This document shows positions 54,582-64,000 of a stretch of DNA of 64,000 nt, piece by piece. The stretch's first letter is position 1; every line of letters begins with the position of its first letter. The DNA comes from Lachnospiraceae bacterium (GTDB taxonomy: Bacteria > Bacillota > Clostridia > Lachnospirales > Lachnospiraceae). Under the pieces are notes generated by a model that had not been told where the DNA came from, ran no database searches, and was given only the letters and a program-made list of their open reading frames with translations. The position numbers and the translations under genes are program-made. The stretch is taken from the NCBI GenBank assembly GCA_017448245.1, contig JAFSLV010000041.1, positions 160,193-224,192 of the forward strand. Reading direction: 5' to 3'.

Positions 54582-54775
54582 TACTGTGCAGTTTGATGAA
54601 ACTGTGTAATATTGTGATGATCCGCAAAAAACCCCGAAACTGCTGAACAGTTATCTGGATGCCCCGCAACTGCGAGATATCGATCACTACTGCTTATTTT
54701 GACGAAAACTATTTGCTGTCAACATGAACGTAAAATGTACTTCTTCCGGATTCTTCCCGAATGATAAGTCCTTCT

Positions 54776-55211
54776 TCAGTGTTTCAAAGTAACATTGGTA
54801 TTATCAGGAAATATTATTCCATCTAGAGAAACACTCCCATCGATGATAATATCAATTACATCGCCGGACACAATGCCATATGAATCGAGTCGAAGCTCAT
54901 TGGAAAAATGCAAATCTTGCTTTTGAGCGTTGTCTACCCAGACTTCCATATAATCGGAGGCCAAAGCATCCCGTTTGAGTGTAATGGTACGCGTCGCCGC
55001 GTGCGCCGTCATAGGTTTTAATGCACCACCCGCGACCTGCAGCCACGACAACCCTCCGAGAATACCGCATACAAAAAGCAGCGCTGCCAAAATGATGGCA
55101 AGTGCCGCCTCCTTTACGCGTGATGATCGGGCGCTTTTGCACGTGCCGCAATGCGCCGCAAAGCCAGTGTTTACAAGGGTTTCACCCCCCCCCTAACCGA
55201 TTCTTATGCAT
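54776..55211 (-). CDS. short secreted protein with poly-G tract in its 5' end, out of frame as read (copy A)
   Basis: Translation from the ATG at 55211 gives MHKNRLGGG and stops at TGA (55184-55182) because of a 9-G tract. With 8 G the frame runs on to 54776, giving about 144 residues: a basic n-region, the hydrophobic segment ALAIILAALLFVCGILGGLS, PMTAHAA (signal-peptidase-like site), then 'TITLKRDALASDYMEVWVDNAQ' and a short beta-rich tail. The same MHKN-poly-G-TLVNT start occurs in copy B at 61784. No good ribosome site is seen before this ATG, and a REP-like element lies about 30 bp upstream, so the copy may be inactive. The mature part is not a family I know. Confidence 0.6.
55185..55193 (-). 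repeat. poly-G(9) contingency tract, copy A
   Basis: Nine G on the coding strand starting at codon 7 of the copy A gene. Loss of one G, or gain of two, restores the frame. Confidence 0.7.
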
Positions 55212-55243
55212 GTTCAGAGGACGGTTCTGTGTGCATGTCACCT

Positions 55244-55341
55244 CATCCGCCGGCTTCGCCGGCATCTTTCTCCGTTCCACTCCGGTCGGCGCAAAGCCAA
55301 CGTCCCCCGGACGTTGTGCGCCCTCAAGGGGAAGGCGGATG
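55244..55341. repeat. REP/MITE-like element with CATCCGCC/GGCGGATG ends
   Basis: A 98-bp element with 8-bp terminal inverted repeats and internal hairpins, such as GCCGGC-TTC-GCCGGC (55249-55263) and CCCTCAAGGG. Its central 61 bp recurs at 56379-56439. I know sequences of this kind (CATCCG...CCCTCAAGGGG) as dispersed repeats of gut Clostridia. Confidence 0.55.
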
Positions 55342-55380
55342 CGCGACTGTCCCCTGTGTGTTTGTGCGTTATGTGTAATG

Positions 55381-56286
55381 TCAGTTCGCGGGGCGCAAGG
55401 TGCCGAGCATCCCCGAGATGTAAAAGAACCCGGCGTAGCCTTCTTCATTGAGAAAGGCGACGGTATCCGTCCCCGCGGGAATCGTAAAGGTCAGGCGGTC
55501 ACCCTTGTAGCCTTCACTGAGGAAGCTGACGACAAGCGTGACGTCGGGACGCGCGGCGAGCGCCTCCATCACCGACCGGTGGAAGGAGTACCAGCGGGAT
55601 GTCGTGATCTCCACCGTCGCGCCCTGTGCAGCATTTTGGATCTTTTCCGCCGTCACCTTCTGGAAGGGTCCGTAGGCGGACAGCGGCACGCGGTACAGTA
55701 CCTGCCCGCAGCCCTCGCAGACGCAGATCTCCTCGCCGTCGTTGTGCACGTCGGGCTCCGTCACCGTCTGCCAGGTGTAAGAAGCGTGGCCGGTCGCGCA
55801 ATGCGTATTCACCGGCGGCGCAAGTCTTCCACAAACACTACAGCTGCCTCCGATCCAGATATGGGCTTCCTTATTATGCTCGTATCCGCACGTTTCACAC
55901 TTCTTGAAATGATGAAGCTGGTCAGATCGCAAATCCTGGAAATAAACATGATATTCTACATATTCTTTCCGTGAACATGAAGTGCATTCTTTCCAGTGCC
56001 AGATATCATCAGTATACTTCCAGTCGCTATAGTTTGAATGGTTACATTTATAGTTGCAGTCAGCACAACGGTCGACGTTAAAAGTATGAGTCCGATAATC
56101 GAGCTTTTCCGTACACCCCGACACTGTACAATTATGCCAGTGCCCGTTATCGTCAGCCTGCCAATCGGCTTCCGCGACGTGAGGATGCCCGCTTGTAGCG
56201 GCTGCCGTCATCGCCATACCGCCCAATGTCAACGCACACAATAAAAGCAGCGCTGCCGCCACACCGGCAAGTATCCTTTTTTTCAT
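55381..56286 (-). CDS. secreted His/Cys-module protein with C-terminal 'RWYSFHR/IPAGTD' domain
   Basis: A 301-residue protein with a signal peptide (MKKRILAGVAAALLLLCALTLGG...TAAA). Residues 35-160 are repeated short modules with paired His and Cys (HWHNCTVSGC, CADCNYKCNH, HWKECTSC, CETCGYEH, CSVCGR), likely small metal-binding folds. From about residue 170 comes a domain with CVCEGCGQVLYR, VEITTSRWYSFHRSV, LVVSFLSEGYKG and FTIPAGTDTVAFLNEEGYAG, which is shared with the proteins at 59972 and (weakly) 62461. The promoter has the TTACGG direct repeat. It lies downstream of the response-regulator gene, and the product is likely exported to the surface. Confidence 0.75.
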   Translation of the reverse strand: MKKRILAGVAAALLLLCALTLGGMAMTAAATSGHPHVAEADWQADDNGHWHNCTVSGCTEKLDYRTHTFNVDRCADCNYKCNHSNYSDWKYTDDIWHWKECTSCSRKEYVEYHVYFQDLRSDQLHHFKKCETCGYEHNKEAHIWIGGSCSVCGRLAPPVNTHCATGHASYTWQTVTEPDVHNDGEEICVCEGCGQVLYRVPLSAYGPFQKVTAEKIQNAAQGATVEITTSRWYSFHRSVMEALAARPDVTLVVSFLSEGYKGDRLTFTIPAGTDTVAFLNEEGYAGFFYISGMLGTLRPAN

Positions 56287-56328
56287 TCTTTCCGTCTCCT
56301 GTTTTTGTAATGTACGTTACCGTATTTT

Positions 56329-56360
56329 GTTATATCACACCCACCGTAACAAAACCGTAA
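56329..56360 (-). promoter_or_regulatory. SARP-like direct repeat TTACGG-N5-TTACGG at -35, site A
   Basis: Minus strand: TTACGG (56360-56355), 5 bp, TTACGG (56349-56344), 9 bp, TATAAC (56334-56329). There is no -35 hexamer other than the repeat. The start codon of the secreted gene is at 56286. The same arrangement is found at 61896-61927. Confidence 0.65.
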
Positions 56361-56378
56361 CAAAAATACAGGGGCGTC

Positions 56379-56439
56379 TTCGCCGGCACCTTTCTCCGTT
56401 CCACTCCGGTCGGCGCAAAGCCAACGTCCCCCGGACGTT
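56379..56439. repeat. 61-bp partial copy of the REP-like element
   Basis: Matches 55255-55315 with one mismatch (A to C), without the terminal CATCCGCC/GGCGGATG ends. It lies between the response-regulator stop and site A. Confidence 0.65.
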
Positions 56440-56455
56440 ATAAATCTTCGCATCA

Positions 56456-57244
56456 TTATACGTCTCTTCTGCCGTGGAAGAACTCCGCCCACTCATACCT
56501 GGGCAGAAAATCACGCGGCGTCATCCCTTCCGGATGCCCGCCTCTGTCAAGATGACGGTAATAGTCGCAGTCGATCATTTCCGGTTTGACCGCATATTCG
56601 TTGCGCGTGTGCACAAGGACATCCGCCATGCCGATCTGATCGAGCGTCTTTCTGATTTCCGCAAAATAGATGCGGATATAGCCCCTGTGTCTTTCCGCTT
56701 CGACGGAGTCGGGCCACAGGGCCGCGCAGATCTCGCCGGCGGTGACGCTCAGGCCGCGTTTGACGATAAGATACGCCAACATTTCCTTGGCGGCATTTCT
56801 GCCAAACTGCAGCTTTTCCCCGCGCCAAAACACTTCAAAATTGCCAAAGCACTGTACGCTCAGACGGTCCGCCCCCTCCGTTTTTAACGGCATGCGCAGA
56901 TTGGCAAGCGCTTCCTCGAGCCGCACCGTCCTGACGGGCTTTAGGAGGTATCCGCTGATGTAGAGTTCCCACGCATTCAGGGCGTATTCGGGGTAGGCCG
57001 TCACGACGATGATATTCGTGTCCGGATACCCTGCCCTGACCTTTTTGGCCACGTCGATGCCGTTTAGGCCCGGCATCTCCACGTCCAGAAAAAGCACGTC
57101 AAAGGCCTCGTCTTCCATGACAGCGAGCACCTCTTCGCCGTTTTTCACCACGGTGATCCGGGCTTCTTCGCCCATCACCTTTTTGACGGACCGCGCAAGG
57201 GAAGTGGCGGCGTTTTTTTCATCATCCGCAATCAAAATATTCAT
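56456..57244 (-). CDS. response regulator with SARP/trans_reg_C-like output domain
   Basis: A 262-residue regulator. The receiver domain has MNILIADDEKN (acidic pocket), VLFLDVEMPG (phosphoacceptor Asp about residue 54) and YLLKPV (conserved Lys). The output domain from about residue 125 (SVQCFGNFEVFWRGEKLQF, then KEMLAYLIVKRGLSVTAGEICAALWPD) is the winged-helix of OmpR/SARP type, ending in the BTAD-like tail GMTPRDFLPRYEWAEFFHGR. Its ATG overlaps the stop of the kinase gene. Predicted target is the TTACGG repeat before the secreted genes. A broken copy lies at 61960-62104. Confidence 0.85.
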   Translation of the reverse strand: MNILIADDEKNAATSLARSVKKVMGEEARITVVKNGEEVLAVMEDEAFDVLFLDVEMPGLNGIDVAKKVRAGYPDTNIIVVTAYPEYALNAWELYISGYLLKPVRTVRLEEALANLRMPLKTEGADRLSVQCFGNFEVFWRGEKLQFGRNAAKEMLAYLIVKRGLSVTAGEICAALWPDSVEAERHRGYIRIYFAEIRKTLDQIGMADVLVHTRNEYAVKPEMIDCDYYRHLDRGGHPEGMTPRDFLPRYEWAEFFHGRRDV

Positions 57245-58566
57245 GGTATCTCCCGTCCTTTTTTCGGTATCCTGATCGTGACCGTCGTGCCCCTGCCGGG
57301 CATGCTCTCAACCTGCAGGGTCCCTTTGGATATCCGCTCCACCCTCGCACGCGCATTGGCAATGCCGATGTGGATATGGTCTTCGGAAACAAAGGTCTCT
57401 TTGTCGGCGGATGCGATAGCGCCATCCCGTGCGGCATCCCCCATAAGACTGTCGGTATCAAAACCGGCACCGTCATCTTCGATGACGATCTCGAAGGCGT
57501 CGTTCGTCTCCCGCGTGCGCAGGGTGAGCGTGCCGGCTCCCGTCTTTTTGCGGATGCCGTGTCGGACCGCATTTTCGACAAGCGGCTGCACCGTCAAAGG
57601 AGGCAGTCTGAAATCCTCAGCCTGTATGTCATACACCACCTGCAATTCCTCCCGAAAGCGCAGCTTTTCGAGCGACAGATAAAAATGCGTGTGCTCCAGT
57701 TCTTTTTGAAAAGGCACCGGCTCGGACTTTTCATAAGACTCAAAGTTGGCGCGCAGATAGTCGGAAAAATCGCAGATGGCCTGCTTGGCCTCCTCCACGT
57801 TTTCATCGCACAGACCGTGGATCGTGTTCATCGTGTTGTAGATGAAATGCGGCCGGATCTGGGATGCAAGCAGATGGCGCCTCAGGCGGTCTTCCCGCTC
57901 CTCAATCACGACGTAGCGCAAAAACATCCAGTAGATCATCATCATCGTAATGATCAAGACAACCGTCACCGGCACCATGACCAGGGAGCGGATCCAGGAA
58001 ACCATCATCACCTGTGCGAGCGCCGCAAGCGTCAGCGTGCACACGATCGCAAAAACGCTTTTGATATGCCGCGCCTCCGAGATCCGGATGTACTCCTGCA
58101 CATACCCCGCAAATAACACCTTCATCACCGGAAAAAGAACCACCGTCACCAGGGCGTAGGCGAGCACCAACGGCGGCGTAAATACGCCCCTGTCCTGTTG
58201 AAAAAGATTGACGATCATGATCTGTGCACAGCCGCCGAAAAAGACGATGAACAGGACCATCATATTGCGGAAGGGGGGAACGTCGACCACAAGCGGCGCC
58301 GCCACAATCAGCAGCGCGATTTCCAGAAGAAGCAGAATACTGCCGACCTCATGGCTGCCCCATGCGCCGAGCATGCCGGGAATCGTCAGTTTTAAAAAGA
58401 CACGCAGCACGGTCACCAAAAGAAGCGCGATGCCGAAAACGATGATCGTTTTCTTTCTGTCGCGCCGAAACAGTTCCTCCGGTATGCAGAGGAAATACAA
58501 AATCATTGCAGGCCCCAGCTGCAGCAGATGCCCCAGGGCTTCCATTGTAAAAGTCGTCACGTTCAT
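57241..58566 (-). CDS. sensor histidine kinase (LytS/YehU-like, His_kinase family), 6-7 TM
   Basis: A 441-residue membrane kinase. Residues 1 to about 220 form six or seven hydrophobic segments without a clear extracellular domain. The phospho-acceptor His is in SQIRPHFIYNTMNTIHG (about residue 240), followed by VENAVRHGI (N box), DDGAGFD and GIANARARVE (ATP lid). It precedes the response regulator in an overlapping pair. The signal is unknown; a membrane-embedded sensor suggests a lipophilic or envelope signal. Confidence 0.88.
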   Translation of the reverse strand: MNVTTFTMEALGHLLQLGPAMILYFLCIPEELFRRDRKKTIIVFGIALLLVTVLRVFLKLTIPGMLGAWGSHEVGSILLLLEIALLIVAAPLVVDVPPFRNMMVLFIVFFGGCAQIMIVNLFQQDRGVFTPPLVLAYALVTVVLFPVMKVLFAGYVQEYIRISEARHIKSVFAIVCTLTLAALAQVMMVSWIRSLVMVPVTVVLIITMMMIYWMFLRYVVIEEREDRLRRHLLASQIRPHFIYNTMNTIHGLCDENVEEAKQAICDFSDYLRANFESYEKSEPVPFQKELEHTHFYLSLEKLRFREELQVVYDIQAEDFRLPPLTVQPLVENAVRHGIRKKTGAGTLTLRTRETNDAFEIVIEDDGAGFDTDSLMGDAARDGAIASADKETFVSEDHIHIGIANARARVERISKGTLQVESMPGRGTTVTIRIPKKGREIP

Positions 58567-58572
58567 GCTTTG

Positions 58573-58617
58573 TGGTGCAAAAGGGACGGTTCCTTTTGTA
58601 CCATCCCTTTTGCACCA
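58573..58617. repeat. 14-bp inverted repeat between the kinase and the Rpn-like gene
   Basis: TGGTGCAAAAGGGA and its exact reverse complement flank 17 bp. It lacks a T run, so it may be a small mobile-element remnant. A related sequence (GCAAAAGGAACCGTTCCTTT) forms the terminator at 59915. Confidence 0.55.
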
Positions 58618-58623
58618 TCAACT

Positions 58624-59661
58624 TCATTGCGTTTCAAGTTGTCTGCGCAGCTGCTCGATCTCCTGTTGCATTGCATCGATTTTATGATGCATTGACTCGA
58701 TCTCCTGATCTTTGACCTCGATCTCCGCAGTAAACCGGTTCTCCGCCTCCTCAAGGCGGGTTTCCGCCGCCTCAGCCTTGGCTTCAGCTGCCTCAGCCTT
58801 GGCCTCCGCTTCCTCAAATCGGGTTTCCGCCGCCTCAGCCTTGGCTTCAGCTGCCTCAGCCTTGGCCTCCGCTTCCTCAAATCGCGCTTCCGCCGCCTCA
58901 GCCTTGGCTTCGGCACGCGCCTGTCGGTTGAGTGCGGTTGTATAGACTTCCTCAAACTTTCTTCGCGCGCGGAGAATGGACCGCGCTGATTCGTCTGCAT
59001 TTACCTGATACATCGCTTCCGCCACCTCCGCAACCGTTTCGCTTTCCTCCGCCAGTTTCCGGAGATCCTCCCACGTTTCCGCCCGAAAGACCTCCGCCCA
59101 GTAATCGAGTCTGTTTTCTTTATCTTCCTTTGTTGCGAGCGCTGTTCGATTTAATGATAGCACATTCATACCGAAGATTGTAGTGTAAATATTGCCGTTT
59201 TCCACGTTCGTCAACAAATACCGAGCATAAAACTCCGGATGATCCGGAAAAAGATCATGATTCAGTATCCCGATATGCGTGGTCGGCTTCAGCCGGTCGT
59301 AATCTCTGTCCTCCCCGCGGATATTGTCGTAGGCACGGCAAAGATACAGCAACGAACGTTTGATCCAGTCAGGATCTTTTTCAATCTGCAGCTCGATGTT
59401 CAATATTTCGTTGTTATTCAATTCCACCAGTGTATCCACGATGATCTCTTTCTGGAGATAATCACCGTAGCTGATCGGATTCAGAATCGTTACTTCTCGT
59501 ACATCTTCTTCTTTCAGGCCCTTCAGCGCACAGATCAGTCCTTTCAATCCGCGTCTTGTCCGCGACATCACCATGTGGAACATCATGTCATTTTTGAGCG
59601 TATCTTCCATAGGGCCGCTCGCGCCTGCAAGCTGCCTGGAGAATTTGACTTTTTCTTTCAT
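58624..59661 (-). CDS. Rpn/PD-(D/E)XK nuclease-family 'transposase' with coiled-coil repeat tail
   Basis: A 345-residue protein. Residues 20-240 match the PD-(D/E)XK nuclease family transposase/Rpn group: NDMMFHMVMSR, NNEILNIELQIEKD with the E-x-Q catalytic motif, and 'SLLYLCRAYDNI'. From about residue 250 an Ala/Glu-rich coiled coil follows, with a 21-residue repeat (EAEAKAEAAEAKAEAAETRF type) present two to three times, and ends in a heptad coiled coil. Such proteins are linked to RecA-independent recombination in other bacteria. It is in a rearranged region, which fits. The DNA repeat can change copy number. Confidence 0.8.
   Translation of the reverse strand: MKEKVKFSRQLAGASGPMEDTLKNDMMFHMVMSRTRRGLKGLICALKGLKEEDVREVTILNPISYGDYLQKEIIVDTLVELNNNEILNIELQIEKDPDWIKRSLLYLCRAYDNIRGEDRDYDRLKPTTHIGILNHDLFPDHPEFYARYLLTNVENGNIYTTIFGMNVLSLNRTALATKEDKENRLDYWAEVFRAETWEDLRKLAEESETVAEVAEAMYQVNADESARSILRARRKFEEVYTTALNRQARAEAKAEAAEARFEEAEAKAEAAEAKAEAAETRFEEAEAKAEAAEAKAEAAETRLEEAENRFTAEIEVKDQEIESMHHKIDAMQQEIEQLRRQLETQ
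58738..58917 (-). repeat. 63-bp tandem repeat in the Rpn-like gene
   Basis: Two nearly identical 63-bp units plus diverged partial units encode the 21-residue coiled-coil repeat. The period is clear from GGCCTCCGCTTCCTCAAATC at 58801 and again at 58864. Confidence 0.75.
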
Positions 59662-59766
59662 AGGCTTTTCCTTTGATCCCCCTTTAACAAAAATGCAAAA
59701 ACAGTGTCTTCCCGGGATGGCATACGCAGCGGATGCCGCGCATGGCCGGACGAGGCCGGCAGAAAG

Positions 59767-59795
59767 AATATACCATACGTTTCATTATATGTCAA
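59767..59795 (-). promoter_or_regulatory. promoter of the Rpn-like gene (TTGACA-N17-TATATT)
   Basis: Consensus TTGACA (minus, 59795-59790), 17 bp, TATATT (59772-59767), 106 bp before the start codon. The surrounding 59662-59914 holds no gene. Confidence 0.65.
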
Positions 59796-59914
59796 TATTT
59801 AGTTTATATTTAATTTATGTTTTGTTAACCTGTCGCGGCGGCCTGCATTTGCGACGCCGTTTTGCGGCATGCGCATATGTGTCTGCGCACCTTGCGACGG
59901 AAAAGTAAAAAAAA

Positions 59915-59945
59915 CGGCGCAAAAGGAACCGTTCCTTTCGCGCCG
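59915..59945 (-). terminator. rho-independent terminator of the phase-variable secreted gene (copy B)
   Basis: Minus strand CGGCGCGAAAGGAAC, one-base loop, GTTCCTTTTGCGCCG, then eight T (59914-59907). It lies 27 bp past the stop of the 59972 gene. Confidence 0.75.
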
Positions 59946-59971
59946 CTTTATCCTTTGCGTTATGGTGCGTG

Positions 59972-61784
59972 TCAGTTCGCAGGGCGCAAGGTGCCGAGCA
60001 TGCCGGAGATGTAGAAGAAACCGGCGTAGCCTTCTTCATTGAGAAGGGCGATCGTGTCCGTCCCCGCGGGGATCGTCAGGATCAGGCGGTCGCCCTTGTA
60101 TCCCTCACTGAGGAAGCTGATGACAAGCGTCACGTCGGGACGCGCGGCGAGCGCTTCCATGACCGACCGGTGGAAAGAATACCAGCGGGAGGTCGTAATC
60201 TCCACGGTTGTACCCGGTGCGGCATTCCGGATCTTCTCCGCCGTCACCTTCTGGAAGGGGCCGTAGGCGGACAGCGTCACCCGGTACAGCACCTGCCCGC
60301 AGCCTTCGCAGACGCAGATCTCCTCGCCGTCGTTGTGCACATCGGGCTCCGTCACCGTCTGCCAGGTGTAGGAGGCGTGTCCGTTCGGACAGGAGGATGC
60401 AGGGGCAGGTGCTGGCGCAGGGGGCTGCGGCGGATAGATGATTTTCCCTCCGATGGACGGCTTCGATCCACTGATTTTGCCGTTCCCGGTGACGTTAATT
60501 GTCCCGTTGTTGTTAAAAGTATTGTTATTCGTCAGTGTTCCGGCATTGATGACCGTTCCGTCGTTCGTCACGGTACCGATGTCGCTGTTGTTCATGTTTC
60601 CGTTATTCGTAACAGTTCCGTTACTCTCATTTGTCATTTTGCCATCGTTGATGATGGTACCGTTGCTGCTGTTTGTCATGTCACCACTGTTCGTCATTGT
60701 TCCGTAATTCGTAATATTTTTATTGTTTTCAATAGTGCCGTTGTTGGTGACGTTAGAAGCGGGCCCGTTCATCATAGATCCGCTGTTTGTCATAGTTCCG
60801 CCGTTTGTAAAAGTGCTGCTATTACCACTACTACTCATGGTACCATTGTTCGTGAATGTACCGTCGGTGTCGTTTATCATTTTTCCGCTGTTCGTGACAG
60901 TACCGTTGTTTGTCATGGTGCCGCTGTTAGTAACGGTATAACCATTATAATTCGTCAAGGTACCATCGTTTGTAATATCCCCGCCATTATTATTCATCAT
61001 GGTGCCGTTGTTGGTGATCTTACCGTCATTATTGTTTGTTATGGTGCCGTTGTTCGTGATCGTTCCGGAGTTGTTGATGGTACTATCGTTGTTAAAGGTT
61101 CCGTTGCTTGTCAGCGTGCCGCTATTATTGATGGTGGCGTTGCTGAAGTTGTTAAAATTCCCGTTGATGTTGATCGTCCCTTGGTTGTTGATAGTTGTAA
61201 TATTTTGTCCATGCTGTACATTAAGAGTAACTTTATTATTGAGTGTGAGTGATGAATCGGCCAGAACGAACATGTAATCGGCGACGCTTAGTGTATAGTT
61301 TCCATCAATTGTTACCGGCACCTGGGAAACAGAAAATTGGGAAACAACTACATTACTCCCCAACTTAAGAATGATCGAATCAACTCCTGGATTAATAGTA
61401 TGACTGTGTGATATATCGCTATTGCTTTCTACATATTGAAAATAGATATTAGATAAATAAAGCTCACCCTGAGGATCATTCCGGAAATCATTTATTGTTA
61501 TAGGCGTTCTATTATCCGAAAAATCTATAGTTACATTATTTTGATTTATGGTAATCGTTGCCGACACGGCCGCATGCGCCGTCATCGGTTTCAGCATGCC
61601 GCCCACCAGGGGCATCCCGGACAGCCCCCCGAAAACACCGCATACAAAAAGCAGCGCTGCCGTTACACCGGCAAGTGCCGCCCTGATTGCGCGTAATGAT
61701 CTCGTGCTCTTGCGGGTTGTGCAATGCGCCGCAAGTACTGTATTTACAAGGGTTTTACCCCCCCCCCACCGGATTTTTATGCAT
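59972..61784 (-). CDS. large secreted repeat protein with poly-G tract in its 5' end, out of frame as read (copy B)
   Basis: From the ATG at 61784 (GGAGG site 7 bp upstream) the frame reads MHKNPVGGG and stops at TAA because of a 10-G tract. With 9 G it would continue for about 603 residues. Domains: signal peptide (basic region, ALAGVTAALLFVCGVFGGLS, PMTAHAA); residues about 75-210 beta-rich; about 210-440 an Asn/Thr/Gly repeat of the form T-N-N-G-T-[IM], probably a beta-solenoid; a proline/alanine linker; then the C-terminal domain with RWYSFHRSV and IPAGTDTIALLNEEG, nearly identical to that of 55381. The promoter carries the TTACGG repeat. It looks like a surface protein switched on and off; the in-frame downstream part alone starts at 61615. 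Confidence 0.7.
61758..61767 (-). repeat. poly-G(10) contingency tract, copy B
   Basis: Ten G on the coding strand at codons 6-9 of the copy B gene. Loss of one, or gain of two, puts the gene in frame. Confidence 0.75.
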
Positions 61785-61895
61785 GTGATTTCCTCCCTCT
61801 TTTAACATCATTTTCCTTTTTTCCTTTCCGCAAAAACACAGTGCTGTTTTGCCATCAACAATGGTCGTATGGGCGATGTCTGTTACTGTTTTTTT

Positions 61896-61927
61896 ATTGT
61901 AACACACCAACCGTAACAAAACCGTAA
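61896..61927 (-). promoter_or_regulatory. SARP-like direct repeat TTACGG-N5-TTACGG at -35, site B
   Basis: Minus strand TTACGG (61927-61922), 5 bp, TTACGG (61916-61911), 9 bp, TACAAT (61901-61896). Sequence and spacing match site A at 56329-56360. The predicted leader to the copy B ATG is about 105 nt. Confidence 0.65.
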
Positions 61928-61959
61928 CAAGGGGAGACGCCGCCGCCACGCGGCGCAGT

Positions 61960-62104
61960 TATCTTCTGTCGTGGAAAAACTCCGCCCACTCATACCTGGG
62001 CAGAAAATCGTGCGGTGTCATCCCTTCCGGATGATCGCCTCTGTCAAGATGTCGGTGGGCGTCTTCGCCCAGCACCTTTTTGACGGACCGCGCAAGGGAA
62101 GTGG
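61960..62104 (-). pseudogene. internally deleted remnant of the response-regulator gene
   Basis: 61964-62056 matches the last 30 codons or so of the 56456-57244 regulator (56470-56556), then 62057-62104 matches codons near its N-terminus (57160-57200). About 600 bp between them are missing. It shows that the regulator/secreted-protein locus was duplicated and then decayed. Confidence 0.7.
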
Positions 62105-62116
62105 AATGACATTTTG

Positions 62117-62461
62117 TCATTCTGTCACGGAGACAACTCTGTGTCCGGCTTTATGCATACATCTTCCGAAGTCACTGCCGCAATCACGGTAATGTCTGCA
62201 ATCCATACAAAATCCGTCATCCGTATGTTCTGAAACACTCGCATACAGCGCACATCCTTCATTCAGCCCGCATGCGACGCGTGTGCCGCCGCTGTCATAC
62301 ACCGCCTCCTTCACAAGATCAGGAAAGAGCGGAATGATGTCCCTTTCATTGCGACTGCCGTTTGCATAGCCATAGTAAACATGGAAGATGTGCGGTGCAA
62401 TACATATCGCTTTATAGAGTTTACCGGGCACCGGCTTCTCCTCCGGCATCGTACCGCGCAT
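62117..62461 (-). CDS. small Cys-rich protein, unknown
   Basis: 114 residues from MRGTMPEEKPVPGKLY. The ATG overlaps the TGA of the upstream secreted-protein gene by one base, so it is translationally coupled. The C-terminal third has a cluster CGLNEGC, FCMDCRHYRDC, FGRCMHKAGH, which looks like a zinc-binding knot. No signal peptide. I do not recognise the family. The tight coupling suggests it works with the 62461-63822 product. Confidence 0.6.
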   Translation of the reverse strand: MRGTMPEEKPVPGKLYKAICIAPHIFHVYYGYANGSRNERDIIPLFPDLVKEAVYDSGGTRVACGLNEGCALYASVSEHTDDGFCMDCRHYRDCGSDFGRCMHKAGHRVVSVTE

Positions 62462-63856: not shown

Positions 63857-64000
63857 TAAGGAAACGCTGATTTAATCCCTTTTTCTCGTTCACAAAGAGC
63901 AACACACCCTGTATAATGGAATCATACCAAATACCATATAAGGCGGTGACTGTATGCAGCAAACCTTTAGTGACATAGAATATTCCAACCGGCGCAGGAA
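63857..64000 (+). mobile_element. left end of an IS5-type insertion sequence (continues past window)
   Basis: Starts near AAGGAAACGCTGATTTAATC, which resembles the terminal repeat of IS5-type elements in Clostridia. TATAAT at 63912-63917 is a likely transposase promoter. The exact left boundary and the target duplication cannot be fixed without the right end. Confidence 0.55.
63954..64000 (+). CDS. IS5-family transposase, N-terminal fragment (cut by window edge)
   Basis: Sixteen codons, MQQTFSDIEYSNRRR, preceded by AGGCGG. This opening (TFSDIEY) is typical of IS5-family transposases in Lachnospiraceae and relatives. The DDE catalytic part is outside the window. Confidence 0.65.
   Translation, partial: MQQTFSDIEYSNRRR

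Follow-up and report, generated by a model that had tools for sequence, protein, structure and literature searches.

Candidate phase variation through a poly-G tract at the start of a secreted-protein gene in a Lachnospiraceae bacterium

Analysis of a 64,000-nucleotide stretch of the genome of a Lachnospiraceae bacterium (assembly GCA_017448245.1, contig JAFSLV010000041.1, positions 160,193 to 224,192; hereafter the window) indicates that one of its secreted-protein genes, here called gene B, is probably a contingency locus, phase-variable through slippage on a tract of ten guanines close to its start codon. Its paralogue, gene A, is perhaps a second such locus, with less confidence than for gene B. 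Mucosal pathogens and Bifidobacterium offer well-described cases of simple-repeat phase variation, and Lachnospiraceae are one of the dominant gut families. In the proposed mechanism, DNA polymerase slippage on the G tract would change its length from cell to cell within this species; one length class in three would place the start codon in frame with the signal peptide and mature protein, the other two yielding no more than a short, dead peptide. Both genes are off in the assembled genome. Phase variation of both genes had been proposed in an earlier note on this DNA, and it emerges as the best-supported explanation, mostly because tract lengths that change the frame occur in five relatives and out-of-frame tracts occur in other genes of the family, whereas the argument drawn in that note from the two copies is weak. 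The elements of the two genes are as follows.

61758..61784, minus strand: 5' piece of gene B, nine codons (MHKNPVGGG) from the ATG at 61782-61784, with a TAA stop at 61755-61757
61758..61767, minus strand: G10 tract of gene B (C10 on the plus strand), among the five tracts of at least nine G in the genome
61792..61796, minus strand: ribosome-binding site of gene B, GGAGG
59972..61756, minus strand: downstream frame of gene B, comprising the remainder of the signal peptide to AHAA, Asn/Gly/Thr-rich repeats and a C-terminal domain shared with the nearby gene C
59975..60370, minus strand: C-terminal domain of gene B (counterpart in gene C, 55384-55779)
55185..55211, minus strand: 5' piece of gene A, nine codons (MHKNRLGGG) from the ATG at 55209-55211, with a TGA stop at 55182-55184
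55185..55193, minus strand: G9 tract of gene A, also among the five of the genome
54776..55183, minus strand: downstream frame of gene A, 135 residues that cover the remainder of the signal peptide and a brief mature portion

Both genes begin with ATG-CAT-AA(A/G)-AAT, followed by the tract, which spans codons 6-9 in each, and the frame set by the ATG ends immediately after nine codons, in TGA in gene A and in TAA in gene B. This is the arrangement that the earlier note had described, and its further observation that a signal peptide, an AHAA motif and a mature protein lie in another frame also held: a signal-peptide-like stretch runs to AHAA in each gene, and beyond the tract this other frame stays open for 594 residues in gene B and 135 in gene A. 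Among the features by which contingency loci are recognised, a homopolymer of about eight bases or more within the 5' coding region is present in both genes (G10 and G9), the tract length sets the frame relation between start and body, the body appears to be selected, and there is no other usable start among ATG, GTG and TTG codons. Comparison of the A and B leaders over 63 codons of the downstream frame gave dN 0.237 and dS 0.635 (dN/dS 0.37, a small sample), and the two other frames, with stop codons skipped, gave ratios of 0.52 (57 codons) and 1.68 (62 codons). Judged by these substitution patterns, the downstream frame of A and B is conserved as protein. Gene B is more than a simply decayed gene, given the length of its open frame together with the leader ratio in that frame; gene A, taken alone, could be decayed.

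Long G runs as such are not in significant excess in the window, where five eight-G windows were counted against a mean of 2.48 in shuffled sequences, 14 of 100 shuffles reaching five; six-G windows are depleted (18 against 35.58 in shuffles). The whole 2.54 Mb genome contains six nine-G windows, which correspond to five tracts: those of genes A and B, one just ahead of the ATG of an ABC-transporter ATPase-like gene, and a further two, apparently intergenic (frames read by eye). Two of these five are found at identical codons of two paralogues, which, on the alignment, is a matter of common descent and not of chance. The two leaders, 66% identical at the protein level, align without a gap around the tract, the tenth G of gene B standing opposite an adenine beside the shared G9. 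Because the alignment is gapless, the off states of A and B are not independent and represent one inherited event. The occurrence of two copies in the same off state, offered in the earlier note as an argument against a chance frameshift, thus counts once. The tract of the ABC-transporter gene, a G9 (L045, G000:C7:32030-32038), lies a few bases before the ATG, and a change in its length could alter ribosome binding.

The evidence that carries the phase-variation reading comes largely from homologues of the C-terminal domain shared by genes B and C, which is common among Lachnospiraceae secreted proteins and was found at 78 loci in GTDB r220, 72 of them in Lachnospiraceae, Butyrivibrio or Parablautia records. 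The 795,877 bases of these loci contain nine runs of at least eight G or C, four of which lie within the domain-protein gene (L122, L125, L136 and L147); in the frame reading of the 78 loci, a contig edge truncated five of the frames, and that of L081 was misplaced. Domain homologues were found in 31 of the 37 genomes of the genus to which L122 belongs, a genus other than that of the present bacterium. There, 23 loci were inspected, 21 of them readable, and a tract of at least eight bases lies in the signal-peptide core at five of the 21, in five species (L212, L213, L214, L217 and L218; L214, L212 and L217 are the same genes as L122, L125 and L136). The tract of L212 is G8 and in frame, with 328 codons, while those of L213, L217 and L218 (G9) and L214 (G10) are all out of frame, with 295-321 codons open downstream. 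The zero frame of these four genes closes 24-35 codons from the ATG and not directly after the tract.

Synonymous sites are saturated among the five tract genes (pS 0.70-0.76), and dN/dS was 0.15-0.29 in seven of the ten pairs, the other three having too many synonymous differences for it to be computed; by this measure the downstream frames are under purifying selection. On a tree of 19 a single change accounts for the presence of the tract (support 72/47; 73% of bootstrap trees), and the sister pair L214 and L217 (97/96) differs in length, G10 against G9. Drift of glycine codons is an unlikely account of the tracts, because GGG makes up 35% of the 295 glycine codons counted in those loci; ten pure GGG codons out of ten would then arise with P ~2e-5 if codons are treated as independent, a value that is approximate given shared descent. 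Another homologue, L147, has a G10 in a linker, with its frame split. The check suggested in the earlier note, a search for homologues with frame-changing tract lengths, thus has a near counterpart within the same domain family (G8, G9 and G10), but at another position in the gene.

Tracts close to start codons also occur elsewhere in Lachnospiraceae. Of 397 family genomes, 13, the present one included, contain the pattern of GGAGG, ATG, 6-36 bases and G9 (14 sites in all), against three of 397 for the reversed pattern and four of 397 (five sites) for a poly-C version, which is not a clean null. The earlier note had called such tracts unusual for the group, and on these counts this is only partly right. 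Among the 14 sites, a secreted protein (L056) and a methyltransferase (L060) are in frame, and two Acyl_transf_3 genes (L059 and L065) and an EndoS-like secreted glycosidase (L063) are out of frame. In 32 further loci, 14 entries combine an upstream start, under a loose rule, with a long downstream frame, and six of these are out of frame; they include, with identities read by eye, a sugar-binding lipoprotein-like and a glycosyltransferase-like gene (L202 and L211). L192, by the same kind of reading a secreted protein, is out of frame as well. A tract alone proves nothing, since in-frame tracts also occur inside apparently ordinary enzymes, for example L182 and L193.

Other explanations of the off state were weighed against these data. 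It is unlikely that the genomic off state is constant and the frame is shifted only when the gene is expressed, whether through programmed ribosomal frameshifting of the prfB type or through RNA polymerase slippage on the G run. A prfB-type site consists of a G-rich, Shine-Dalgarno-like run with a stop codon immediately after it, and A and B have kept both the tract phase and the adjacent stop (TGA and TAA) through 24% divergence. In the five relatives, however, the frame relation varies, one being in frame and the other four being thrown out of frame by tracts of two different lengths, and the late end of their zero frame means that no shift site is conserved across the family. Another improbable possibility is that A and B are both pseudogenes that inherited one frameshift from before their duplication. 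Such a history would fit the off phase common to both without a gap, and also the state of gene A, with no recognisable ribosome-binding site and without most of the body of gene B; the 594 open residues of gene B and the leader dN/dS in the downstream frame argue against it. It is more doubtful still that the assembly misstates the tract lengths and that the genes are in reality in frame. Homopolymers of 9-10 bases are error-prone and the assembly is in 48 contigs, but errors yielding an identical phase would have to have struck both paralogues, the off frame is also seen in four of the five relatives, which come from separate genomes, and such errors would explain neither the tract as such nor its persistence in relatives. 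A separate start for the downstream frame, which the earlier note had named as a possible objection, is very improbable, since the first ATG, GTG or TTG codons of that frame, a TTG at 55090 inside the hydrophobic core of gene A and an ATG at 61615 past that of gene B, would leave a product lacking part or all of the export signal.

Several observations nevertheless weigh against phase variation. Gene A alone may be a dead copy, because no recognisable ribosome-binding site lies directly upstream of it and its upstream DNA is not homologous to that of gene B. After 24% divergence the two genes retain the same tract phase, which would be coincidental for two rapidly changing tracts. Tracts of at least nine G number only five in the genome, and among these the GGAG and ATG start pattern is found at gene B only, its one other match in the genome being a G7 site; Campylobacter jejuni NCTC11168, as reported in the matched text of PMC4965091, has 29 poly-G/poly-C loci, compared with one clear locus and one doubtful copy here. 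The A/B leader with its tract was found in none of 78 other genomes of the genus in a DNA search with up to ten candidates scored per genome, and in none of 396 other genomes of the family in a protein search with up to three; the leader had no relative in the r220 collection, from which the present genome was possibly left out, and the species is represented by one genome. In the genus of L122, 16 of the 21 readable homologues have no run of at least six in the scanned stretch, and L216, a sixth member of the part of the tree that holds the five tract genes, is tract-less. As the tracts of these relatives lie elsewhere in the signal peptide, they support the mechanism by analogy, inside one domain family, and not by orthology.

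Genes A and B belong to a cassette which, on the minus strand, runs in the order gene B, Rpn-family nuclease, sensor kinase, response regulator, gene C and gene A. The remaining members and the associated repeats are listed below.

55381..56286, minus strand: gene C, a tract-less secreted protein with an ordinary in-frame start; its C-terminal domain is that of gene B (89% over 146 residues)
56343..56363, minus strand: direct repeat upstream of gene C, identical to that upstream of gene B
56456..57244, minus strand: response regulator (receiver domain)
57241..58566, minus strand: sensor histidine kinase
58624..59661, minus strand: Rpn-family nuclease/putative transposase (PDDEXK_2), a possible insertion into the cassette
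61910..61930, minus strand: direct repeat TTGTTACGG/TTGTTACGG, operator-like, upstream of gene B

With up to three mismatches allowed, the genome contains no further copy of the exact 21-base direct repeat TTGTTACGGTTTTGTTACGGT that lies upstream of genes B and C. Because a response regulator is encoded between the two genes, the natural inference is that the repeat is a shared putative operator for B and C, although duplication of the region could by itself have copied it. Through this repeat the neighbouring two-component system would probably govern how gene B and gene C, its partner without a tract, are transcribed, and gene B would then be under two controls, regulated transcription and a random frame. 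Gene B appears to be composite, its leader resembling gene A and its C-terminal domain gene C; gene A lacks most of the gene B body. A truncated second copy of the response regulator lies upstream of gene B (61962-62104, matching 56465-56559 and 57160-57207 in pieces 92-96% identical), which suggests that the cassette probably arose by tandem duplication followed by partial deletion.

The Rpn-family nuclease gene is flanked by 38-base inverted repeats, 76% complementary (58574-58611 and 59907-59944), in the manner of a mobile insertion, and contains a 21-base tandem repeat at 58720-58929. On both sides of gene C there is a 65-base repeat, 97% identical (55251-55315 and 56375-56439), resembling a small dispersed element. 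No inverted-repeat pair bracketing the start of A or B was found in 54600-62200, recombinases not having been searched genome-wide. Base 64000 of the window is the end of the contig, and the genes upstream of the cassette are cut off.

The product of gene B is inferred to be an adhesin-like antigen, located at the cell surface or extracellularly and exposed to phage or host immunity. Its repeats gave a filamentous-haemagglutinin match below threshold (E 0.0099, 17 bits against a cut-off of 21.5). The C-terminal domain shared with gene C reached no Pfam or NCBIfam cut-off, and the structure model of this domain in gene B, although confident (pLDDT 96.2), had no clear structural relative or match in the Protein Data Bank (PDB). 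The downstream frame contains no LPXTG motif and ends in LRPAN. No sortase family was detected among the neighbouring proteins scanned, the contig ending at the window end and the genome not having been searched for sortases.

The closest known system is the switch of sortase-dependent pili in Bifidobacterium breve UCC2003 (bbr_0113 and bbr_1889; PMC9187656). According to the matched portions of that paper, there too the first open frame is short and meets a G tract, the remainder of a surface protein that is exported is encoded in another frame of the reference genome, no second start is usable and there are two loci per genome; B. breve is moreover a Gram-positive gut commensal. Its first open frame can be as short as 24 bases, with switching shown (PMC9187656). 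The B. breve product differs in being an LPXTG pilin encoded in a sortase cluster, and there a range of tract lengths was measured by maximum-depth sequencing and microscopy revealed pili once the frames were joined (PMC9187656); the present case is a candidate read from sequence. In Campylobacter and Neisseria, as the matched passages describe, G or C homopolymers likewise switch surface-related genes by their length (PMC6321876, PMC8355987, PMC4965091, PMC5084427), in another phylum, with other product families and with tens of such loci per genome. Within Clostridia, Clostridioides difficile shows on/off heterogeneity, but the retrieved text attributes it to site-specific inversion and not to homopolymer slippage (PMC8890394, PMC11868660).

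The part of PMC2831843 that was retrieved proposes that homopolymers within genes act as a general regulator and describes poly-G as under-represented in general. The retrieved text of a 2025 phase-variation review discusses the C. difficile inversions, and the string Lachnospir occurs nowhere in it (PMC11868660); that of PMC6437147 deals with homopolymer phase variation in C. jejuni and gives Lachnospiraceae merely as a taxon count. The literature matches listed thus contain no report of homopolymer phase variation in Lachnospiraceae, so that the mechanism is known and its occurrence in this family is without report among those matches.

Beyond the single locus, there is about an even chance that Lachnospiraceae use slippage of G/C homopolymers generally for secreted and surface functions, among them repeat proteins with the C-terminal domain, glycosidases, acyltransferases, glycosyltransferases and lipoproteins. 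The tract would then have been recruited at three separate positions in one domain family, at codons 6-9, in the signal-peptide core and in a linker, and in the present cassette over a dedicated two-component system. If homopolymer phase variation in the family is real, cells of one gut strain would differ in the secreted proteins that they make, assembled genomes would miscall such genes as broken, and comparisons of strains would confuse switching with gene loss.

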